Both the position numbers and the translations under genes were made by a program. From assembly GCA_030754715.1 (NCBI GenBank), contig JASLZV010000037.1, positions 1 through 10,049 of the forward strand: a DNA stretch of 10,049 nt, written 5' to 3'. The notes below the pieces were generated by a model. That model did no database searches. It saw only the letters and a list, made by a program, of their open reading frames with translations, and was not told where the DNA came from. The stretch comes from Phycisphaerae bacterium. GTDB lineage: Bacteria > Planctomycetota > Phycisphaerae > SM23-33. Below, in pieces: positions 514-10,049 of this stretch. Numbering within the stretch: the first letter of the stretch is position 1; every line of letters begins with the position of its first letter.

Positions 514-2850
514 TTACGGCGCGGGCGGCGAGGCCTTGCGGAGGGCTGCAAGGAACCGGGGGGCGACCTCTGCGCCGAGGGCCTGTGCCTTCCTTACATC
601 GGCCCAGGCCCTGTCATACCGACGCTTGTGGTAGTATGCGATGCTGCGTCCGCTGTAGGCTGTGGCGTAGGCGGGATCTAGTTCGATGGCCCTGGTGTAA
701 TCGCGGATTGCGTTATCGGTGTCGCCCTTGTTTCCGTACGTGGCGGCCCGGTTGTAGCAGGCCCTGGCATAGTCGGGATCCAATTCGATGGCTCTGCTGA
801 AGTCGCTGATAGCCTTATCGAGGTCGCGGTTCTGCGCGTGGGCGAAGCCCCGGTTGTTGTGTGCTTCGGCGTAGTCTGGATCCAGTTCAATCGCTCTGTT
901 GAAGTCGCGGAATGCCTTATCGAAGTGGCCCTTCTTCCTGTGGGCAAGCCCGCGGTTATTGTGGGCCGGGGCGGAGTTAGGGTTGATTTCGATGACCCTG
1001 GTGTAGTCGTGGATTGCCTTATCATAGTCGCCCTTCTGGTCATGCGCAAGCCCGCGGTGGTTGCGGGCCTGCACATAGCCGGGTTCCAGTTCGATGGCCC
1101 TGGTGAAGTCGCGTATTGCCGCGTCGTAGTTGCCCTTCTTGCTGTGCGTAAGCCCGCGGTGGTTGTGGACCTGGGCGTCGTTGGGTTCCAGTTCGATAGC
1201 CCTGGTGAAGTCGCGGATTGCCTTATCGAGGTTGTCCATCCGCCCGTGTGTGAGGCCCCGGTTGTAGTAGGCGTCGGGATCGTTGCCCTCCAGTTCGATG
1301 GACCGATTAAAATCGTGGATTGCCTTATCGAGGTCGCCCTGTTGACCGTACGAGACGCCACGGTTGCCATGGGCCTTGGCATGCCTGGGATTCAACCGGA
1401 TGCCCCGAGTAAAGTCGCTGATGGCCTTGTCGTGGCTGCCCATTTTGCTGTAGGCCCGCCCCCGGTTGTGCCACGCCCGCCAGTTGCTCGGCTTTTTGGC
1501 AATGGTGTCGTCCCACACGGAAAAACTGCTGCGGTAGTCGTAATTGCGTCTGACGGTCAAAAACCCCAGTATCACCACGACGGCGGCGGTCAGCCCAACG
1601 CCGGCAATTGCGAAAGTCGGACGCAAGGTCCTGGCGACACCCGGGCGATCCAGAAGTCGTCTGCCAAGGATGTATGCGCAGACCACCACCGCCACGACGA
1701 CCGCCGCCATGGTAAGAAACATCCGCTTTTCGTCCACCGGCTGAATCAGGAGCGGGACAATGGTGGAACTGGGGGCCAGGATCCCAAAGAACCACACGCC
1801 GAGAAAGCCAAGCCGCGGTCTGCGGCAAAGTGCCCAGACGGTTGCGGCCAGTACGATCAGCATGACGGTTGCGGGCCAGATGCTAAGGGTGGCCCCTTCG
1901 AATGGGAGGGCGCCATAGTCAACAATCAGTGGATGAGGCCAGAAACAAAGACGCAGGTAGTGGGCGACGGCTGCGATCTGCATCAGGGCGTAGTTGCTTA
2001 AAGCCCACGAGAATTCCGCCCCAAGCAGTGTGACGCGACCGCCGCCGGGCACGACCAGGGCCGCCAGAAGCCCCCAGGTGGCGGCCAGGGCGATGTACAA
2101 GAGCCACCTGCGGCGGAACACCTCCTTGAACGAGCGTGCCAGGAACACCCGGTCATAGATCAGGATAACCACGGGGGCTGATGCTATCGTCTCCTTGCAG
2201 CCGGCGCCCATGGCGCAGACGACAATAGCGGCGATATACCAGCGGGCAGGTCGGGATGAGGCGGCGGCGCGGATGAGGCAGTAAAGGGTGAGGAGGTAGA
2301 ACAGACCCATCATGGATTCGGTTCGCTGGATGATGTACGTGACGGCCTCGGTGTTTAGCGGGTGGACCGTCCAGATCAGCGACGCGACAAAGGCCAGGGG
2401 CAGCGACGCACGGACGACATGCTCGGGCATGATCGGCAGGTGCAGCGTCCTTCGGATAACGGCGAACAGCGTCAGGGCCGCCAGGATGTGGATGACCAGG
2501 TTGAACACGTGGTAGCCGCGCACGTCCAGGCGGCCGATGGCGTAGTTGACCGCAAGGGACAGATTGACCACGGGCCTGTTCTGAACGGCCTCGCCACCTC
2601 CGGGTGGTGACAGGGGCGCCCAGATGGGCCAGAGGCTGCGGATGGTGGGATTCCTTTCGATCGAACCGGGGTCGTCGAAGATAAACGGCCGCTGGATGCT
2701 GTTGTAGTAGGCCGCCGCGCCGGCAAGGACGATGACCAGCCCCGCGGCCGACGGTATCCACCAGCGCGTGGCCGGGGCGGAACGTTCAACGGTTGACCTG
2801 GCCAGTAATTCGCTCATGTGTGCTGCCGACTTGTCGGGTCTTTCGGCCAT
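514..2850 (-). CDS. Copy A: TMTC-like membrane glycosyltransferase with 9 TPRs
   Basis: A 778-residue two-part protein. Residues ~33-433 form a polytopic membrane domain with roughly 11-12 hydrophobic segments (for example 33-50, 113-134, 249-267, 284-303, 347-370, 377-396, 412-432). The loop after the first segment carries FIFDD (D59-D60) and NPTIRSLWP; conserved HPLNTEAVTY (163-172), QRTES (175-179) and EKRM (374-377) follow. A first-loop acidic pair is typical of GT-C fold transferases, and the layout (GT-C half, then TPRs) is that of TMTC proteins, protein O-mannosyltransferases of animals. Residues 459-~752 hold nine 34-residue TPRs in exact register (starts near 459, 493, 527, 561, 595, 629, 663, 697, 731; the last is degenerate). 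The tail AQALG...V.P.FL..LRKAS is shared by all paralogs here. The membrane domain implies inner-membrane location, and TPRs in the periplasm would match TMTC topology, but the segment count is too uncertain to fix the side. ATG 2850 has no Shine-Dalgarno; the alternative M12 also lacks one. Substrate is unknown. Confidence 0.85.
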   Translation of the reverse strand: MAERPDKSAAHMSELLARSTVERSAPATRWWIPSAAGLVIVLAGAAAYYNSIQRPFIFDDPGSIERNPTIRSLWPIWAPLSPPGGGEAVQNRPVVNLSLAVNYAIGRLDVRGYHVFNLVIHILAALTLFAVIRRTLHLPIMPEHVVRASLPLAFVASLIWTVHPLNTEAVTYIIQRTESMMGLFYLLTLYCLIRAAASSRPARWYIAAIVVCAMGAGCKETIASAPVVILIYDRVFLARSFKEVFRRRWLLYIALAATWGLLAALVVPGGGRVTLLGAEFSWALSNYALMQIAAVAHYLRLCFWPHPLIVDYGALPFEGATLSIWPATVMLIVLAATVWALCRRPRLGFLGVWFFGILAPSSTIVPLLIQPVDEKRMFLTMAAVVVAVVVCAYILGRRLLDRPGVARTLRPTFAIAGVGLTAAVVVILGFLTVRRNYDYRSSFSVWDDTIAKKPSNWRAWHNRGRAYSKMGSHDKAISDFTRGIRLNPRHAKAHGNRGVSYGQQGDLDKAIHDFNRSIELEGNDPDAYYNRGLTHGRMDNLDKAIRDFTRAIELEPNDAQVHNHRGLTHSKKGNYDAAIRDFTRAIELEPGYVQARNHRGLAHDQKGDYDKAIHDYTRVIEINPNSAPAHNNRGLAHRKKGHFDKAFRDFNRAIELDPDYAEAHNNRGFAHAQNRDLDKAISDFSRAIELDPDYARACYNRAATYGNKGDTDNAIRDYTRAIELDPAYATAYSGRSIAYYHKRRYDRAWADVRKAQALGAEVAPRFLAALRKASPPAP
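595..1476 (-). repeat. 102-bp tandem repeats coding TPRs of copy A
   Basis: Nearly nine units of 102 bp, each encoding one 34-residue TPR with the core NRG....G..DKAI.D..RAIEL.P. Units are in perfect register with no indels. Because the repeat length is a multiple of three, unit gain or loss by recombination keeps the reading frame. The repeat also creates long open frames on the opposite strand, which should not be taken as genes. Confidence 0.85.
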
Positions 2851-2900
2851 GGACCGTTATGCTATATCGCCCCGGGGCGGCGGGAAAGATTATCTTCAAT
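2851..2900 (-). promoter_or_regulatory. Conserved leader of copy A
   Basis: The block GGACCGTTATGCTATATCG (plus strand, 2851-2869) touches the ATG. AAGATTATCTT, a near-palindrome, lies at 2886-2896, with CCCCGGGG in between. The same two elements at the same spacing precede copies B, C and D. Read toward the gene, the first block gives TATAGCATAACGGTCC-ATG. CATAAC five bases before the ATG resembles a -10 element of a leaderless promoter, which would explain the missing Shine-Dalgarno; no matching -35 is evident. The promoter role is inference; the conservation is seen directly. Confidence 0.45.
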
Positions 2901-2910
2901 GCGGATGCCC

Positions 2911-2926
2911 CCGCACGTACGTGCGG
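2911..2926. repeat. 16-bp perfect palindrome upstream of copy A
   Basis: CCGCACGTACGTGCGG is its own reverse complement. It lies 60 bp upstream of the copy A start, beyond the conserved leader block. The homologous position upstream of copy C reads CCGGACGCACATTGCGG and is not a perfect palindrome, so the symmetry is specific to this copy. It could be a protein-binding site or a small hairpin (8-bp stem, no loop). Confidence 0.4.
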
Positions 2927-2948
2927 ATGAGCGCTTTTTGTCGTGCGG

Positions 2949-3389
2949 CTAATTGTCGGGCGAGGCCTTGCGGAGGAGTTCGAGGAACGTTGGGTTGACT
3001 TTGTAGCCGAGGGCCTGGGCCGCGTTTACGTCCGCCCGGGCGCTCTTGTAGTTGCGTTTGTGAAAGTGCATCACGGCACGGTTGTGGTAGGCCTTGGCGA
3101 ATTTGGGGTCCAATGCGATGGCCTTGCTGTAATCGCGGATGGCGTGGTCGTAGTCGCCCTTGTGATCGCGGGCGATGCCGCGGTCACAATAGGCCCTGGG
3201 GCTGTCGGGATTCAGGTCGATGACCCTGGTGAGATCGCGGATTGCCTTGTCGTGCTCGCCTTTGCGGTCGTAGGCGACGCTCCGGTTCCTGAAGGCCTTG
3301 GCGAGTTTGGGGTTCAGGTCGATGGCCTTGTCGTAATCTCCGACGGCCCGGTCGTACTTCGTGATTCTGCCGGTGGGCCACGCCCCGGC
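2949..3389 (-). pseudogene. Copy A': 5'-truncated, frameshifted TPR remnant
   Basis: Only the C-terminal TPR part survives. From 3355 down to the TAG at 2949 the frame encodes YDRAVGDYDKAIDLNP, further TPR units and the family tail ending LELLRKASPDN. It is very close to the last ~135 residues of copy D at protein and DNA level. Upstream of ~3363 the homology continues in another frame (RGVAHRQNH, as in copy B), because CACGAAGTAC replaces the expected CACCACTAC-type sequence with one extra base. Homology then ends near 3389 at an abrupt junction with the PEP-CTERM leader region. The membrane domain and start are absent. An ATG at 3410 opens a 153-residue frame, but its first ~17 residues have no family resemblance and no Shine-Dalgarno was noticed, so expression as a small TPR protein is possible but not favoured. 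Compared with D, its TPR units 2 and 6 are directly joined, showing loss of four units. Confidence 0.75.
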
Positions 3390-3632
3390 GTCGGGAAAAA
3401 GCGGCCCCACCGCAAAAAATCATTCGAATCGGCTTTTTTTATCTTGACGCGTCACCGCTTTTGGGGTAACCTATTGACAGTGAGATAGAGTTCATTTACA
3501 GGTGAGGGTTGAGCGGCAGCAAACGAACGAAGGGCTCGTAGAGCGACAAGTTGTAAAGAGTGTTATGAACGGCAAGGCAATTATCAATTTACCAATCTAT
3601 CTTTTTGCTTTTTTTTGCTACAGGAGATGCGT

Positions 3633-3647
3633 ATGAGAAGAAGGTGA
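3633..3647 (+). CDS. Possible leader peptide MRRR
   Basis: ATG AGA AGA AGG TGA is preceded at 6 nt by AGGAG (3622-3626), a better-placed Shine-Dalgarno than those of several long genes here. The three Arg codons are AGA/AGG, which GC-rich genomes usually avoid. The stop codon is directly followed by ATG 3648, which is in frame with the PEP-CTERM gene. The arrangement resembles a translated attenuator or coupled upstream ORF. Four codons can arise by chance, so confidence is low. Confidence 0.25.
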   Translation: MRRR

Positions 3648-3689
3648 ATGCCAGGTAGTTTGAGGACAGTTTCACCGCGGCGGTTGGTT

Positions 3690-3718
3690 CCGGGCGCATG
3701 TAAACCCGGGCCGATGCG
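3690..3718 (+). promoter_or_regulatory. Possible H-type pseudoknot in the PEP-CTERM leader
   Basis: CCGGG (3690-3694) can pair with CCCGG (3705-3709). CGCAT (3695-3699), inside that loop, can pair with ATGCG (3714-3718) downstream. The two helices interleave as in an H-type pseudoknot, or they are mutually exclusive alternatives. The Shine-Dalgarno of the gene (3743-3748) lies 24 nt downstream, a suitable distance for translational control. No known riboswitch consensus was recognised. Confidence 0.3.
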
Positions 3719-3742
3719 GGGAAACGAAGCGAGAAAAAAGTT

Positions 3743-3748
3743 AAGGAG
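3743..3748 (+). promoter_or_regulatory. Ribosome binding site deciding the PEP-CTERM start
   Basis: AAGGAG lies 7 nt before ATG 3756 and only 1 nt before ATG 3750. This favours 3756 (MKKLAL...) over the longer in-frame starts at 3648 and 3750. The extra 36 residues from 3648 are Arg/Pro-rich and would bury the signal peptide. Confidence 0.8.
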
Positions 3749-3755
3749 CATGAGG

Positions 3756-4754
3756 ATGAAAAAGTTAGCATTAACGCTGTTGCTCGTATTGAGCGTGGCC
3801 GGCATGGCCAGCGGCGAGACGCTGCTGTCGATCGGGTTTGAGACGAGCGAGGGCTACACCGACGGCAGCAACGAGACGCTGTTGACCGAGTCCTTCGCCG
3901 GCGGCACCGGCAACCAGGGCGGCTGGTATGGCGAGATGTACTACACCGACAGCCAGGCCACCAACACCGGCACGGTGAGTGACCAGCAGGCCAAAGCCGG
4001 GACCCAGAGTTTGAGGTTGCCGAAGGAAGACTACTACTACGACTACTATCGTCACAAGTTCACACTCAAGAGCACCGGCGTCTTGACCGTTTCGTGGTGG
4101 CGCATGCTGGAGAACGTCGATACGGTAAACAAGAACAACTACAACCGTTCGACTGTCATCATCGACCAGACCGACGGCGGGACCGATGCCTTCCCAGCCA
4201 AAAACGGGAGCATCACAGTCGCCACGCCGACACAGAGCAATGTTACATACGCCTCGGCGCCGGATGAGATCCGCAGCCAAACTGGTGACGCTACCGAGAC
4301 GTACTGGGACGGCGACTCCAACACGGAGCAGTGGGTGGATTCGACAATGTCCGGTGTTGGGGCCCAGGGCGCGTGGGTCGGCACGAAGGTGGTCATTGAT
4401 CTGGATGCCGCCGGCGGCTGGGGCTCGTATGACCTGTACGCTGATACAGGGGCCGGCTGGACGTTATTGCAGAGCGCCCTGGACCTGAACTGGAACAGTA
4501 TCGGCAGCAATCCCCACCCGACATCGGCACCGTGGGTTGATCCGGAAGGGACCACGTACTCCCGGACGACCGACCCCTATGGTCTGGATACGTTTAACCT
4601 CTACGGGATCAACGGGACCAACTACTTCGACAATACGCAGTATGCGACCTTCATTGATGACATACTGGTCACGTGGGTGCCCGAACCGATCACCATGGGC
4701 CTGCTGGCCTTTGGCGGACTGGGCGTGCTGTTGAGGCGGCGCAGACGCCGGTAA
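3756..4754 (+). CDS. PEP-CTERM exported surface protein (exosortase substrate)
   Basis: A 332-residue exported protein. Residues 1-20 (MKKLALTLLLVLSVAGMASG) are a signal peptide, with cleavage likely after A-S-G. The mature part opens with a GFETSEGYTDG motif (~residues 25-35), followed by GGWYGEMYY, GTQSLRLP and LTVSWWRM. This is the pattern of beta-sandwich, concanavalin-A/LamG-like domains found in planctomycete PEP-CTERM proteins. It is rich in Thr, Ser, Asn, Gly and Tyr, with an acidic cluster before the anchor. The C-terminus has VPEP (308-311), the hydrophobic segment MGLLAFGGLGVLL and a run of six Arg, the tripartite PEP-CTERM signal recognised and cleaved by exosortase (EpsH/XrtA-type) at the inner membrane. 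No exosortase is in the window. Its direction is opposite to all the TPR genes, it sits between two decayed copies, and it has its own ribosome site and terminator, so it is probably a single-gene unit. Ligand or structural role is unknown. Confidence 0.88.
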   Translation: MKKLALTLLLVLSVAGMASGETLLSIGFETSEGYTDGSNETLLTESFAGGTGNQGGWYGEMYYTDSQATNTGTVSDQQAKAGTQSLRLPKEDYYYDYYRHKFTLKSTGVLTVSWWRMLENVDTVNKNNYNRSTVIIDQTDGGTDAFPAKNGSITVATPTQSNVTYASAPDEIRSQTGDATETYWDGDSNTEQWVDSTMSGVGAQGAWVGTKVVIDLDAAGGWGSYDLYADTGAGWTLLQSALDLNWNSIGSNPHPTSAPWVDPEGTTYSRTTDPYGLDTFNLYGINGTNYFDNTQYATFIDDILVTWVPEPITMGLLAFGGLGVLLRRRRRR

Positions 4755-4794
4755 GTGGTTGGTGAAAAACCGAATACGCAAATATGTTCTCAGG

Positions 4795-4827
4795 CGGCCC
4801 CCGCCTTTTGCGGGGGCCGTTTGCTTT
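4795..4827 (+). terminator. Intrinsic terminator of the PEP-CTERM gene
   Basis: CGGCCCCCGC (4795-4804) and GCGGGGGCCG (4810-4819) form a perfect 10-bp GC stem with a CTTTT loop, followed by TTTGCTTT-type T-rich sequence. It lies 40 bp after the stop codon at 4754. Confidence 0.85.
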
Positions 4828-4868
4828 ACGCCGACCACGCGTGACGGAAATAATGAAGGTTACGGGGG

Positions 4869-4895
4869 TCACCAAGTTCATCAAGGACACGAAGG
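4869..4895. repeat. Degenerate 9-bp periodic tract
   Basis: TCACCAAGT, TCATCAAGG and ACACGAAGG are three consecutive 9-mers sharing the core CA(C/T)(C/G/T)AAG. The tract lies in the 186-bp gap between the PEP-CTERM stop and the end of copy B. Similar CACGAAGGA-like 9-bp periodic runs are, from memory, frequent between genes in some environmental bacterial genomes. Their function is not known to me. Confidence 0.35.
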
Positions 4896-4940
4896 TCGCG
4901 GCTAACATGAGGCTTCATGGCGCCCGCGGGTGCAAGTGGC

Positions 4941-5420
4941 CTATTGGTGGCGCGTTGATGCCCTGCGTAGATCGACGAGAAAGGCGGGATTGACCTTGTA
5001 GCCGGGGGCTTGGGCCATCGGCATGTCGGCCAGAGCGTTTTGGTAGCCGCGTTTGAGGAAGCAGGCCAGGGCGCGGTTGTAGTATGCCCTGGCGAGTTTG
5101 GGGTCCGGTTCGATGGCCCTGGTGTGAAATTGCCGACGGCCCGGTCGTAGTGGTGATTTTGTCGGTGGGCCACGCCCCGGTTCACGTAGGGGTGGAGATA
5201 GGCGGGATTGAGGCGAATGGCCCGGGTGTAATCGGCGATGGCCTGTTGGCGGTTGCCCCGGCGGGCGTGGGCGTTTCCGCGGTTGTTCCAGGCGCGATAG
5301 TTTGACGACAGGCCCCAGCGACGTTGCCCAGCGGTGTCGGGCGCGGGGGTGAGACCCATCCGACGGTGCGGCCGAGGGAGGGCTGATGCGTGCTGCCGGC
5401 TTGTCGTGTCCTGCGGCCAT
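4941..5420 (-). pseudogene. Copy B: TMTC-like gene with membrane half deleted
   Basis: Both ends of a family member are present but the middle is gone. ATG 5420 is the family start in its usual leader context, and MAAGHDKPAARIS matches MAERPDKSAAHMS of copy A. The ~430-residue membrane domain is absent. Homology resumes near 5305 with SSNYRAWNNRGNAHARRGN in a different frame, giving two TPRs. At 5121-5127 (GGTGTGA) two extra bases shift the frame back, and HTRAIEPDPK continues to the family tail GYKVNPAFLVDLRRAS and a TAG at 4941. The start and tail are therefore in the same frame with a mistranslated stretch between, leaving a 159-residue open frame that would encode a meaningless middle. 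The homology break between ~5310 and ~5385 is the deletion scar. The leader upstream is intact, so transcription may persist. Confidence 0.75.
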
Positions 5421-5468
5421 GGATCGCTATGCTATATCGGGTCGGGACGTCGGGGAAGATTATCTCAA
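5421..5468 (-). promoter_or_regulatory. Conserved leader of decayed copy B
   Basis: The block GGATCGCTATGCTATATCG (5421-5439) and AAGATTATCTC (5456-5466) keep the family spacing of 35 bp, although the gene is broken. One arm of the near-palindrome has a mismatch here. The end of copy C's extended reading frame (stop 5460-5462) lies inside this element. Confidence 0.45.
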
Positions 5469-7208
5469 GGCGGCAGCCCCCAAGGGAGGAGTGCCCGCGG
5501 AGGAGTGTTTTTTTGTGGGGCGATAATTGTCGTGCGGGGCCTTGCGGAGGGCTTCAAGAAAACCGGGGGCGACCTTGTAGCCAAGGGCCTGGGCCCTCCG
5601 TGCATCCGCCCGTGCCCTGGCGTACTGGTGCTTGTGATAGTGCGCGACGGCCCGACTGTTGTAGGCTTCGGCGTAGTTGCCTTTGAGTTTGATGGCGTGG
5701 GTGTAGTCTTCGATAGCCTGGTCGTAGCGGCCTTTCTTCGAGCGGGCGAGACCCCGGTTCCTGTAGGTTTGGGCGAATTGCGGATTCAACCGGAGGGCCT
5801 GAGTGTAGTCGTGAATCGCCTGGTCGTAGTCCCCGACATCCTGGTAGGCGGCTCCCCGACTGTTCCACGCGTGATAACTGTGCGGCAGTTTGTCCACGGT
5901 GTCCTGCCAGATTGCCAGTTCGCTGCGGTAGTCGCAGTTACGCCTGACGGTCAGGAACCCCAGTATCAGCACGGCGGCGGCGGTCAGCCCAACACCGGCG
6001 AGTTGCCCGACGATTGTCCCCAGGTGAGGGCCCAAGCGGCTGGCAAGACGCCGTCCGAGGCCGTATGTACAGATTACAACCGCCACGATCACCGCCGCCA
6101 GGGGAAGGTACATGCGTTTTTCGGCCGCCGGCTGAATCAGGAGCGGCACGAGGGTGGAACTGGGGGTCAGGATTGCAAAGAACCACACGCCCAAAAAGCC
6201 CTGCCAGGGCCTGTCGCGAAATGCCAGAACCGTTCCGACCAGCAGCAGCACGAGGATAACCGCATATGGGAGGACCTGTGCCGCCGAGCCGGTCCGGAAA
6301 ATGCCGTAGTCAATGATCAGGGGGCTCGGCCAGAAGGAAAGACGCAAGTACCGGACGACGACGATAGCCTGTCCGGGGATGTAAGCCCGCAAGGCCGCCC
6401 AATAGCCGAACCCGACCGAACTGCCGCGACCGCCCGGGGGTATCACCAGCGCCGCCAGGAGCACCCAGGTAGCGGCCAGGCCTATGTACAAGGGCCATCT
6501 GTGGCGAAAGACCTGCTTGAGTGAACGTGCCAGAAACACCCGGTCATAGAGCAGGACAATGAGAGGGGCGGTTACCATCACCTCTTTGGATCCCATGCCC
6601 AGTGTGCAGGCGACTACGGCTGCGACATACCACCAGAAGGGGCGTACGGCACCGGCGCCTCGAATCATGCAGTACAACGTGAGCAGATAAAACAGCCCCA
6701 TCAGCGATTCGGTTCGCTGGATGATGTACGTCACGGCCTCGGTCTGTAGGGGGTGGACCGCCCAGATCAACGCCGCGACAAAAGCCAGGGGCAGCGACGA
6801 GCGGGCAATATGCTCCGGCATGACCGCCAGGTGCAGCGTCCTTTGGATAATGCCGAACAGCGTAAGGGCCGCCAGGATGTGGACAACCAGGTTGAAAATG
6901 TGGTAGCCGCGGACGTCCAGGCCGCCGATGGCGTAGTTGATGGCCAGCGAGATGTTGATAACAGGCCTGCTCTGGATGGCGAGACCCTCGGCCGGTGGGG
7001 AAAGGAGCGGCCAGATCGGCCAGAGGCTCCGGATAGTTGGATTGTCCCGGATGGAGCGGGGATCGTCGAAGATAAACGGACCGCCGAGACTGTTGTGATA
7101 TGCAAGCGCACCGGCCAAGACGATGACCAGCCCCGCCGCCGACGGTAACCACCAGCGCGTGGCCGGGGCGGAACGTTCAACGGATGATCTGGCCGACAGT
7201 GCGCTCAT
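5460..7208 (-). CDS. Copy C: TMTC-like protein, 3 TPRs, stop codon lost
   Basis: A 582-residue paralog of A and D with the same GT-C-like membrane half: FIFDD with D48-D49, HPLQTEAVTY at 152-161, QRTES at 164-168, EKRM at 363-366, and ~11-12 hydrophobic segments up to ~420. Only three TPRs follow (starts near 447, 481, 515), against 8-9 in A and D, then the family tail AQALGYKVAPGFLEALRKA. The family normally stops just after the A-x-x-(D/E)-N tail. Here N561 is followed by TAT instead of the TAG used by A', D and E, so the frame runs 21 residues further, through lysine- and alanine-rich residues, to TAA at 5460. ATG 7208 is chosen because GGAGG (7214-7218) lies 5 nt upstream. The ancestral ATG used by A, B and D is gone here, and a TAA precedes in frame. 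Membrane topology and substrate are as uncertain as for A. The extension may be neutral; the gene looks otherwise intact. Confidence 0.83.
   Translation of the reverse strand: MSALSARSSVERSAPATRWWLPSAAGLVIVLAGALAYHNSLGGPFIFDDPRSIRDNPTIRSLWPIWPLLSPPAEGLAIQSRPVINISLAINYAIGGLDVRGYHIFNLVVHILAALTLFGIIQRTLHLAVMPEHIARSSLPLAFVAALIWAVHPLQTEAVTYIIQRTESLMGLFYLLTLYCMIRGAGAVRPFWWYVAAVVACTLGMGSKEVMVTAPLIVLLYDRVFLARSLKQVFRHRWPLYIGLAATWVLLAALVIPPGGRGSSVGFGYWAALRAYIPGQAIVVVRYLRLSFWPSPLIIDYGIFRTGSAAQVLPYAVILVLLLVGTVLAFRDRPWQGFLGVWFFAILTPSSTLVPLLIQPAAEKRMYLPLAAVIVAVVICTYGLGRRLASRLGPHLGTIVGQLAGVGLTAAAVLILGFLTVRRNCDYRSELAIWQDTVDKLPHSYHAWNSRGAAYQDVGDYDQAIHDYTQALRLNPQFAQTYRNRGLARSKKGRYDQAIEDYTHAIKLKGNYAEAYNSRAVAHYHKHQYARARADARRAQALGYKVAPGFLEALRKAPHDNYRPTKKHSSAGTPPLGAAALR
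5595..5870 (-). repeat. 102-bp TPR units of copy C (three)
   Basis: Three 34-residue TPR units in register, beginning AWNSRG, TYRNRG and AYNSRA. The low number beside 8 and 9 units in D and A shows that the array has changed in size between paralogs while both flanks stayed homologous. Confidence 0.75.
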
Positions 7209-7241
7209 GTGCGCCTCCGGTGTGTCGAGTTCGGTCGTTGC

Positions 7242-7290
7242 GGACCGTTATGGTATATCGGAACGGGATGCTGGTGAAGATTATCTTCAA
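7242..7290 (-). promoter_or_regulatory. Conserved leader of copy C
   Basis: The block GGACCGTTATGGTATATCG (7242-7260) and AAGATTATCTT (7277-7287) are separated exactly as in the other copies. Here the block is 33 bp upstream of the usable ATG (7208), because the family's first ATG has been lost and translation must begin at the internal ATG with a GGAGG. The block's persistence without the adjoining ATG argues that it acts in transcription, or that the loss is recent. Confidence 0.45.
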
Positions 7291-7333
7291 TGTGAATGTC
7301 CCCGGACGCACATTGCGGATGATCGCTTTTTGT

Positions 7334-7397
7334 CGGACGGGCTTTTTGCCGGGCGGGCTGATTGTCGGGCGGGCTGGTTGTCGGGCGGGCTAATTGT
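7334..7397. repeat. Four 16-bp direct repeats over the end of copy D
   Basis: The units are CGGACGGGCTTTTTGC (7334-7349), CGGGCGGGCTGATTGT (7350-7365), CGGGCGGGCTGGTTGT (7366-7381) and CGGGCGGGCTAATTGT (7382-7397); a fifth partial begins at 7398. The unit is a duplicate of the last codons and stop of the family (on the minus strand ...GAC AAT TAG CCC), so the 3' end of copy D has been tandemly copied into the spacer before copy C. Other copies have a single unit. Confidence 0.7.
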
Positions 7398-9630
7398 CGG
7401 GCGAGGCCTTGCGGAGGAGTTCGAGGAACGTTGGGTCGACCGTCCAGCCGAGGGCCTGTGCCGCGTTTACGTCCGCCTGGGCGCTCTTGTAGCTGCGTTT
7501 GTAGAAGTGCATCACGGCACGGTTGTAGTAGGCCTTGGCGAATTTGGGGTCCAATGCGATGGCCTTGCTGTAATCGCGGATGGCGTGGTCGTAGTCGCCC
7601 TTGTGATCGCGGGCGATGCCGCGGTCACAATAGGCCTCGGGGCGGTCGGAATTCAAGTCGATGACCCTGGTGAGATCGCGGATTGCCCTGTCGTGCTCGC
7701 CTTTGCGGTCGTAGGCGACGCCCCGGTTCCTGAAGGCCTTGGCGAATTTGGGATTCAATGCGATGGCCTTGTCGTAATCCCCGATCGCCCGGTCGTGGTT
7801 GCCGTTGTTGCCGTGTGCGATGCCGCGGTCGTTGTAGGGGCCGGGGAGTTTGGGATTCAAGGTGATGGCCTGGGTAAAGTTGCTGATGGCCTGATCGTGA
7901 TTGCCTTTGCGATCGTAGGCGATGCCGCGGTTCCTGTAGGCTTTGGCAAACCTGGGATTCAATTCGATGGCCCGGTTGGCATCGCGGATTGCATCGTCGT
8001 AGCGGCCCCTCTTGCGATGCACGATGCTCCGGTTGTTGTAGGGCCCGGCGAATTTGGGGTTCAGGTCGATGGCCTTGTCGTAATCCCCGACGGCCCGGTC
8101 GTAGTTGCCCTTGGCCAAGTAGGCGTTGCCCCGGTTGGTATAGGCTTTGGCGTACAAGGGATTCAGTTTGACGGCCTGGTCGTAATCGCCGATGGCATGG
8201 TCGTGGTTTCCTTCACTGGCGTAGGCGCGCCCCAGATTGTTCCAAGATCGCCAGTTGTCCGGGCGTTTCTCGACCGCGTCGTGCCAGATGGCGAGTTTGT
8301 TGCGGTAGTCGTCGTTGCGCCTGACGGTCAGAAAACCAAGAACCAGGACCACAGCGGCGGTCAGCCCGCAGCCGAGAATCCTGGCGGCGGTTCTTGATGT
8401 GGACAGGCGATTTGCAAGATGCTGTCCGAGGACGTATGCGCAGAGCACCACGCCCACAACGACGGCTGCCAAGGGCAGGTACATCCGTTTTTCGGCGATG
8501 GGCTGAACCACAAGCGGCACAATGCTGGAACTTGGCGCCAAGATTGCAACGAACCACAGCCCCAGAAAACCAAGCGGGGGCCTGTAGAAGAATGCCACCA
8601 CCGCCGCGGCCAGCAGCATCACGAGGATGATCGCGTGCGGGATGCTCAGGGTAATCTCACCGGCCGGCAAATGGCCATAGTCCACAATCAGCGGATGGGG
8701 CCAAAAGCAAAGACCCAGGTAACGGACGACGGCTACAATCTGCGTTAAGGCATACGAATGGGTGGCCTGCCAGTACTCCAGGCCCTGGGCGGCGTGGTCG
8801 ATGCCGCGGCCGCTTAGGGGCAGTACCAGCGCCGCCAGGGGCGCCCAGGTGGCGGCCAGGGGGACGTATAATCGCCACCTGCGGGCAAAGGCGACGTTGA
8901 ACGAGGGGGCCAGAAAGAGCCGGTCGTACACCAGGATAACCACCGGCGCAGTTACCATCGCCTCCTTACAGCCCATGCCCAGAGCGCAGGCGGTTACGGT
9001 TGCGACATACCACCAGAAAGGTCGAGATGCGCCGGCGGCGCGGATCGCACAGTAGAGCGTCAGCAGATAGAACAGCCCCATCATGGATTCTGTTCGCTGG
9101 ATGACGTAGGTTACCGCCTCGGTCTGCAGGGGGTGGACTGCCCAGATCAATGCAACGGCAAGTGCCAGCGGAGTGGCCCCTGCGGCCAGGGCCTGCGGGA
9201 TGACCGGCAACTTGAGGGTCCCCCGTACGATGCCGAACAGCGTCAAGGCGGCCAGGATGTGGATGGCCAGGTTGAAAATGTGATAGCCGCGGACGTCCAG
9301 GCCGCCGATGGCATAGTTGATCGCCAACGACAGATTGACGATGGGTCTGTCCTGGACCGCCAGCCCGCCGCCTCTGGGTGGTGACAGTGCCGACCAGATG
9401 GGCCAGAGGCTCCGGATGGTCGGGTTGTTTTTGATTGATTCGATGTCGTCGAAGATGAACGGACCCTGAAAACTGTTGTGGTAGACGGCCACGGAGGCCA
9501 GGATGATGACCAGCCCCGCCACCGGCGGCGCCCACCAGCGTGGGGGCGTAGTGAAATGCTCAGCGGATGATCTGGCCGACAATGCGATCATGTGCGCCTC
9601 CGGTGTGTCGAGTTCGGGTTTTTCGGCCAT
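7390..9630 (-). CDS. Copy D: TMTC-like membrane glycosyltransferase with 8 TPRs
   Basis: A 746-residue paralog of A and C. The membrane half spans ~38-437, with FIFDD (D61-D62) in the first loop, HPLQTEAVTY (166-175), QRTES (178-182) and EKRM (380-383). Eight 34-residue TPRs begin near 462, 496, 530, 564, 598, 632, 666 and 700, with the family tail AQALG...V.P.FLELLRKASPDN and a TAG at 7390. Two starts compete. ATG 9630 matches the family start beside the conserved leader but lacks a Shine-Dalgarno. ATG 9591 (M14, giving 733 residues) has GGAGG at 9597-9601, 5 nt upstream, exactly as in copy C; I regard the latter as at least as likely. Its C-terminal ~135 residues are nearly the same as those of pseudogene A'. 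Role by family: GT-C-type transfer from a lipid-linked sugar donor to a protein acceptor; specificity is unknown. Confidence 0.85.
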   Translation of the reverse strand: MAEKPELDTPEAHMIALSARSSAEHFTTPPRWWAPPVAGLVIILASVAVYHNSFQGPFIFDDIESIKNNPTIRSLWPIWSALSPPRGGGLAVQDRPIVNLSLAINYAIGGLDVRGYHIFNLAIHILAALTLFGIVRGTLKLPVIPQALAAGATPLALAVALIWAVHPLQTEAVTYVIQRTESMMGLFYLLTLYCAIRAAGASRPFWWYVATVTACALGMGCKEAMVTAPVVILVYDRLFLAPSFNVAFARRWRLYVPLAATWAPLAALVLPLSGRGIDHAAQGLEYWQATHSYALTQIVAVVRYLGLCFWPHPLIVDYGHLPAGEITLSIPHAIILVMLLAAAVVAFFYRPPLGFLGLWFVAILAPSSSIVPLVVQPIAEKRMYLPLAAVVVGVVLCAYVLGQHLANRLSTSRTAARILGCGLTAAVVLVLGFLTVRRNDDYRNKLAIWHDAVEKRPDNWRSWNNLGRAYASEGNHDHAIGDYDQAVKLNPLYAKAYTNRGNAYLAKGNYDRAVGDYDKAIDLNPKFAGPYNNRSIVHRKRGRYDDAIRDANRAIELNPRFAKAYRNRGIAYDRKGNHDQAISNFTQAITLNPKLPGPYNDRGIAHGNNGNHDRAIGDYDKAIALNPKFAKAFRNRGVAYDRKGEHDRAIRDLTRVIDLNSDRPEAYCDRGIARDHKGDYDHAIRDYSKAIALDPKFAKAYYNRAVMHFYKRSYKSAQADVNAAQALGWTVDPTFLELLRKASPDN
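7465..8247 (-). repeat. 102-bp tandem repeats coding TPRs of copy D
   Basis: Eight units of 102 bp in register. Core residues NRG.AY..KG..D.AI.DY.KAI.LNP recur. Units 2 and 3 share near-identical DNA with later units (KFAGPYNNR versus KLPGPYNDR and KFAKAFRNR), consistent with internal duplication. Confidence 0.8.
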
Positions 9631-9680
9631 GGACCGTTATGGTATATCGCCCCGGGGCGCCGGGGAAGATGATCTTCAAT
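9631..9680 (-). promoter_or_regulatory. Conserved leader of copy D
   Basis: The block GGACCGTTATGGTATATCG (9631-9649) and AAGATGATCTT (9666-9676) are 35 bp apart start to start. With flanks the second reads GAAGATGATCTTC, a perfect 6+1+6 inverted repeat and the best example of the four. Upstream, GCGCCC/GGGCGC around 9688-9703 can form a 6-bp hairpin in the E-D spacer; without a T-run it is not called a terminator. Confidence 0.45.
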
Positions 9681-9733
9681 GCAGGAGCGCCCGGCGGGGC
9701 GCGCCTGGGGAGGAGTGTTTTATGTCGGGCGGG

Positions 9734-10049
9734 CTAATTCTCTGCCGAGGCCTTGCGAAGGGCTTCAAGAAATCCGTGGGGGACCTCGTAGCCAAGGGCC
9801 TGGGCCGCCCTTACATCGCCGCGGGCCCGGTCAAAGTTGCGTTTGTTGAAATACACCAAGGCGCGCTCGCTGTAAGCCATGGCGAGTTTGGGGTTCAGTT
9901 CGATGGCCCTGGTCAAGTCGCCGATCGCGGTGTCGAAGTCGCCCTTCATCCTGTAAGTGCTGCCGCGGTTGAAGTGGGCCTCGGCGTACTCATCCTTCAA
10001 TTCGATGGCTTTGGTGAAATCGGAGATTGCCTGGTCGAGCCTGCCGTCC
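9734..10049 (-). CDS. Copy E: TPR family member, C-terminal part
   Basis: 105 codons are visible and the gene enters from the right edge. It reads DGRLDQAISDFTKAIELK, then further TPRs beginning AHFNRG and AYSERA, then the family tail ARGDVRAAQALGYEV with FLEALRKASAEN and a TAG at 9734. The frame is open to the window end, so the apparent TTG/ATG-like starts inside it are not real starts. By analogy it should begin with the same GT-C-like membrane half, but that is not in view. It lies 103 bp upstream of copy D in the same direction. Confidence 0.8.
   Translation of the reverse strand, partial: DGRLDQAISDFTKAIELKDEYAEAHFNRGSTYRMKGDFDTAIGDLTRAIELNPKLAMAYSERALVYFNKRNFDRARGDVRAAQALGYEVPHGFLEALRKASAEN

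Follow-up and report, generated by a model that had tools for sequence, protein, structure and literature searches.

The 10,049-nucleotide (nt) window analysed here is the entire contig C310 of a Phycisphaerae metagenome bin (2.24 Mb, 498 contigs, 69% complete), and most of it is occupied by six minus-strand loci of one gene family. Judged from sequence, these loci form a real, old, multi-copy array of genes for membrane glycosyltransferases that resemble the animal TMTC proteins, the activity itself being predicted. Complete products consist of a hydrophobic membrane half followed by a half built from tetratricopeptide repeats (TPRs), an arrangement shared with TMTC proteins, in which a membrane half with two aspartates (DD) in its first outer loop also precedes TPRs. 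TMTC1-4 are described in an excerpt of PMC7801869 as protein O-mannosyltransferases (CAZy GT105), and full-length prokaryotic homologues are noted there. We favour, at a probability of about 0.6, the reading that the array encodes membrane glycosyltransferases working like the animal TMTC proteins, with different copies serving different acceptors. A previous sequence-only reading of this DNA had proposed a recent local amplification of TMTC relatives, selected for variation of acceptor recognition through the TPR half. Its account of the anatomy and of the family resemblance stands, its recent amplification and positive selection do not, and variation through the TPR half is retained in part, as modularity.

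Anatomy of the array

From high to low coordinate the loci are ordered E, D, C, B, A' and A, with a gene for a PEP-CTERM protein between B and A'. The reading frames and a shared tail repeat confirm that all six belong to one family within 9.5 kb, as had been claimed.

514..2850, minus: A, intact, 778 amino acids (aa); membrane half and the longest TPR half (344 aa)
2949..3388, minus: A', a tail only, lacking its 5' part
4941..5420, minus: B, with start, N-terminus, promoter block and tail kept and nearly all of the membrane half deleted
5460..7208, minus: C, 582 aa, reading on for 21 codons; membrane half followed by a short TPR half of 139 aa
7390..9630, minus: D, intact, 746 aa; membrane half and TPR half (309 aa)
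9734..10049, minus: E, the 3' part of another gene that the contig end interrupts

The tail repeat (D4), 169 nt long, occurs six times; with the A' copy as reference, five of the six show 65-93% identity to it. The membrane halves of A, C and D all carry FIFDD in the first loop, and those of A and C are 62.6% and 64.4% identical to that of D, far above chance. The stages of decay described earlier are also recovered: A and D are intact, C lacks the usual stop, both A' and B are broken, and the contig end interrupts E. In C, a sense codon occupies the position at which D, A' and E terminate, and the 21 further codons end in the upstream block of B. The same run-on tail is found in cluster sequence P0005 (longest listed contig 3283 nt); the two differ near the N-terminus. 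In B, the deletion junction lies near 5303-5305 and a frame change near 5125. A' is 91.5% identical to the 3' end of D across 426 nt, while its final 28 nt (3361-3388) are similar to B; its nonsynonymous rate (dN, 0.087) is close to its synonymous rate (dS, 0.101; dN/dS 0.86), the pattern expected of a piece without function. The 104 residues of E are matched exactly by P0008 (565 aa), which represents the full-length protein; E is evidently truncated by the contig end, and its sequence does not indicate decay. P0004 is 99.5% identical to A. Directly beyond the D stop, a 16-nt repeat runs for 4.6 copies (7330-7403), its unit overlapping the final codons of D.

Elsewhere in the genome the family is spread over five contigs bearing ten membrane halves: three on C310, four on C11 and one each on C165, C210 and C388, of which the C388 copy is 5'-truncated; extra broken pieces lie in C388 and C11. 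Full-length identity to D is 56-64% in seven copies and 73% in C165. Neighbouring copies are separated by 39-181 nt, mostly around 100.

The membrane half and its proposed activity

In D, hydrophobic helices extend to about residue 441, and the predicted structure places D61-D62 between model helices 34-49 and 114-139. A DD pair is present in the loop after the first transmembrane helix in all nine of the genome's own copies compared, which confirms the acidic pair proposed for this position. The residues checked at the TMTC motifs M1-M5 are of catalytic type in the same nine copies: M1 is kept, as is RP of M2, M3 reads RxE, M4 KE with T or S at its final place, and M5 DY for DW. M7 takes the form E-x-R-M-Y in 8/9 copies, with its arginine one place later than in TMTC; in gene A, phenylalanine replaces the M7 tyrosine. 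In a whole-genome profile search, A (29.1 bits) and C (30.2 bits), together with four further own copies, exceed the curated cut-off of 26.1 bits for PMT_2 (PF13231), a family of GT-C transferases. D falls below it (21.6 bits), and the matches in A and C are partial, spanning about positions 50-155 of 160. PMT_2 proteins, moreover, usually lack a TPR half.

Several results weigh against full kinship with either family. M2, SHKSYRP in TMTC, has lost HKS and retains RP alone (QDRP, QNRP, QSRP or QRRP), and by eye the first proline of M6 is not kept. DUF1736 (PF08409) has no match in the window's three membrane halves at E<=10 and none over its cut-off in five genomes, where three weak matches occurred, none at a family gene, the same search also giving weak matches in 5/14 control genomes; among 28 membrane halves it was matched once (E 0.13). 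An hmmscan of the three membrane halves returned no PMT_2 at E<=10, so that the PMT_2 scores above rest on a different search mode. When the membrane half was aligned by hhalign with two PMT_2 proteins encoded in its own genome, the probabilities were 5.2 and 0.1, against 0.2 for an unrelated protein from that genome. A sequence search found no solved structure for the membrane half, NCBIfam gave nothing useful for the 28 membrane halves, and a structural search with the full-length protein listed TPR-type matches only, which is uninformative on the membrane half. Thus, the relationship to TMTC that had been proposed stands in so far as most catalytic motifs are kept in 9/9 copies, and falls short in the absence of DUF1736 and of HKS in M2; the copies differ from TMTC further in being bacterial and in forming tandem arrays. 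A TMTC-like, sugar-transferase-like domain is supported, membership of TMTC itself is not.

How such proteins might work can be outlined. On the outer side of the inner membrane, the PMT_2-type membrane half would take a sugar off a polyprenyl-phosphate carrier, and a periplasmic TPR superhelix would hold an exported protein as the acceptor; each copy would have a conserved promoter block of its own. As the copies differ mainly in TPR number and sequence, different acceptors are proposed for them. The TPR superhelix is reminiscent of OGT, which tied with others as best structural match to the TPR half; the catalytic domain of OGT is a soluble GT-B, however, whereas the predicted catalytic part here is a membrane domain. 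As tandem direct repeats, the copies would be prone to loss, truncation and recombination, sometimes placing a membrane half before the TPR tail of another copy. Their internal repeat units of 102 nt make deletion and exchange easy, which would explain A', B and a tail-only piece in C11.

A possible source of the donor sugar is found beside the copy on C388, after which come gmd and an Fcl-like gene. The Fcl-like gene stands tail to tail with a methyltransferase-GT2 fusion that adjoins a broken family piece and whose best NCBIfam match, under the cut-off, is AglJ.

L038 4912-6336, plus, and 6348-8486, minus: methyltransferase-GT2, Fcl-like and gmd genes beside a family copy

It is plausible that these genes supply the donor, converting GDP-mannose to a GDP-fucose-type sugar that is then passed to polyprenyl phosphate, although this neighbourhood was seen at a single locus.

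The same neighbourhood bears on a different view of the acceptor, namely that it is a glycan or lipid and that the array modifies envelope or extracellular polysaccharide, with the TPR half as a docking platform. Nucleotide-sugar genes and a GT2 next to a family copy would fit such a role. ArnT acts on lipid A. Of the solved structures, it is also the one that PMC7801869 names as most similar to TMTC. On the other hand, the same paper has the animal relatives acting on proteins; TPR halves of up to 309-344 aa suit peptide binding, and a single copy was seen with the sugar-gene neighbourhood. A glycan or lipid acceptor is therefore rather unlikely, though it deserves to be kept in mind beside the protein acceptor that we prefer.

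Age, selection and modularity of the TPR half

A tree of 48 membrane halves was used to place nine own copies (the near-identical P0004 of A was omitted). The nine do not form one group: seven are nearest to an outside sequence, and A pairs with C11a. Since the outside partners include near-identical strain variants (P0011, P0015, P0016), the age argument rests on three pairs: D and P0002, 82% identical and both with TPR halves of 309 aa; E (as P0008) and P0010, 87% identical; and C165 and P0003, at 0.88 in the membrane half. The identities of the first two pairs imply that D and E predate the separation from the population of those partners. P0002 and P0010 are both listed with a 10920-nt contig, which suggests, without amounting to proof, that the D and E orthologues are neighbours elsewhere too.

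Both halves are under purifying selection, dN being lower than dS in all 36 pairs of the nine own copies, with the TPR half the less constrained; these are simple counts on aligned repeats. Across seven repeats of D and P0002, a single orthologue pair, 4/35 positions taken as ligand-facing had changed, compared with 27/126 other non-core and 4/77 core positions. Positive selection on the TPR half, as the sequence-only reading had suggested, was thus seen neither in the dN/dS counts nor in the position comparison.

From these sequences the family appears long-lived, and not a fresh burst under diversifying selection. A recent local duplication burst with selection diversifying the TPR half would find support in A', a young partial copy of D, in the several stages of decay and in the faster divergence of the TPR half. 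It is nevertheless improbable, given the two outside pairs at 82% and 87%, the seven of nine copies nearest to outside sequences, the uniform excess of dS and the low rate of change in the ligand groove. Even less probable is that the membrane half is a non-catalytic anchor and the proteins are scaffolds: catalysis is predicted from sequence, A carries phenylalanine at M7 and D scores below the PMT_2 cut-off, but the M1-M5 residues checked are of catalytic type in all nine copies, and constraint is stronger on the membrane half than on the TPR half.

The TPR half varies in length between 105, 139, 173-174, 309 and 344 aa, near steps of 34 (C counted without its run-on; C165, cut by its contig, excluded). 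It can also change abruptly: over the first 87 TPR residues D and P0002 agree at 0.78 (membrane half 0.85), compared with 0.49 for D and C165 (membrane half 0.82). P0017 provides a tree-supported case of exchange. Its membrane half belongs to the C11c group (support 100/100), placement with D and P0002 being rejected by the approximately unbiased (AU) test (0.0005), while its final 105 residues group with D, P0002 and A' (100/99), the C11c group being rejected (AU 0.005). The groups were named after the pair identities were known, and these P values are accordingly not those of a blind test. It is well supported that in P0017 another membrane half has been joined to a D-type tail, in one swap. 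Tails at least 78% identical to that of D were found in D, P0002 and P0017 only, among the best 120 of 129 matches.

A second swap, in P0016, is doubtful. This sequence combines the C11c membrane half with the C11b tail, both at about 100%, and differs in its N-terminal 30 residues; because C11c and C11b are adjacent, either unequal crossing-over or an assembly hybrid would account for it. A candidate swap between the C11b and C11d groups is not supported, as the tail tree is compatible with the membrane-half grouping (C11b, P0014, P0013, C11d, P0015; AU 0.459); fast evolution of the TPR half suffices there. The proposal that variation is channelled through the TPR half therefore survives as modularity, in 34-residue steps and one tree-supported swap, and not as positive selection.

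That the array is an artefact of stacked or chimeric copies in a 498-contig bin is very improbable, for although contigs end inside family genes (C310, C165, C388) and P0016 is a hybrid of neighbours, the copies, at 56-73% identity to D, are too divergent for assembler stacking, A, C and E recur in separate cluster sequences, and P0014, P0015 and P0243 are all listed at 15961 nt, as P0002 and P0010 both are at 10920 nt.

Upstream blocks, neighbouring genes and relatives

By eye, nine of the ten copies examined carry a shared block adjoining the start, in which a GAAGATNATCTTC-like palindrome is followed by CGATATA(G/C)CATA.... The block has two changes in C11a, is one base short in the palindrome of B and is missing from C210.

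2851..2897, minus: upstream block of A (CGATATAGCATAACGGTCC at 2851-2869; GAAGATNATCTTC-like palindrome with one mismatch at 2885-2897)
5421..5466, minus: upstream block of B (palindrome one base short)
7242..7288, minus: upstream block of C (CGATATACCATAACGGTCC at 7242-7260; palindrome at 7276-7288)
9631..9677, minus: upstream block of D (CGATATACCATAACGGTCC at 9631-9649; palindrome at 9665-9677)

Exact palindromes occur three times in the genome, always preceding a family gene. With up to one mismatch there are 27 sites, six of them before family genes, compared with one site for a reversed control pattern. The block is a lead towards a conserved promoter of each copy. C (7209-7260) and C165 (L036 1534-1585) lack the first start codon of D, and their translation would start 13 codons further downstream.

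The gene embedded between B and A' encodes a protein that ends in a PEP-CTERM signal, as in PEP-CTERM/exosortase sorting.

3756..4754, plus: gene for a PEP-CTERM surface protein, 332 aa, with a signal-peptide-like start (by eye); candidate acceptor

It scores 22.8 bits, and 27.6 bits in a second search, against PF07589 (cut-off 20.7). Two paralogues lie inside the C11 array (L035 6655-8890), and the subfamily comprises ten proteins at E<=1e-10. Three of its four members on contigs longer than 5 kb are on family contigs, one of them by matching contig size: P0243 is listed with a 15961-nt contig, as are P0014 and P0015. In the genome itself, 3/9 PEP-CTERM matches fall on family contigs, whose share of the assembly is 2.2%; P is 0.0008 if the matches are independent and 0.0125 if the two on C11 count as one. 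Against such a link stand C479, which carries an own-genome subfamily member and has no family match, and a linkage test in 12 relatives with complete PF07589 lists (G005, G056 and three others left out), in which 6/46 family sites had a PEP-CTERM gene within 5 kb where 4.8 were expected (P 0.34). General linkage is thus rejected, and the association is a lineage-specific lead only. In an excerpt of PMC1569441, the PEP-CTERM regulatory genes lie close to glycosyltransferases, and a protein with TPRs, PrsT, is named; unlike the array proteins, PrsT is described there as a lipoprotein, with no membrane-transferase fusion.

That the embedded PEP-CTERM proteins are the acceptors, and the sugar a deoxyhexose from the gmd/Fcl pair, is the part of the proposal of which we are least sure. 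Also speculative, and improbable as a whole, is a combinatorial glycosylation in which halves would be recombined between neighbours, with A'-like tails as donors and PEP-CTERM acceptors co-evolving, so as to re-aim surface glycosylation.

Tandem organisation extends to relatives, where for 27/97 genes another family member is no more than 4 kb away (1.7 expected). These genes come from 6/25 family-bearing genomes, 17 of the 27 from a single one (G056), whose members are mostly distant relatives. One contig of that genome (L039, G056:C177, 1-19120) holds a head-to-tail row of eight open reading frames of distant relatives, 26-31% identical in the membrane half; in the three aligned, HP, RxD and KP replace RP, RxE and KE. 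In another genome (L046 5875-7950, G042:C29), a relative's gene is split by a single TGA in the membrane half. Proteins with a similar membrane half are common among bacteria (5128/8000 scored candidates at E<=0.001). The best-scoring ones with an organism label are P0024 (Actinobacteria), whose membrane half is that of genome G051 of the same class in the 48-sequence tree, and P0027 (Phycisphaerae). Named family loci are found in Pirellulales, Pirellula, Sumerlaeota, Omnitrophota and Nitrospirae bins.

At the low-coordinate edge of the window, the minus strand of 3-218 encodes the first part of a protein that looks secreted, with a hydrophobic N-terminus and an LFIDDYII motif; its gene continues beyond the contig, and the encoded piece has no Pfam match. 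Scans of the window for Rfam families (gathering threshold) and tRNAs gave no matches.

The open-licence literature searched contained no study of the function of a bacterial TMTC-like protein, of TMTC-like arrays or of TPR swapping. An array in which some TPR halves are short, promoters appear to be shared and candidate acceptors and donor genes lie close by would offer a test of acceptor choice by the TPR half. How that half selects its acceptor is a question relevant to the TMTC proteins as well.

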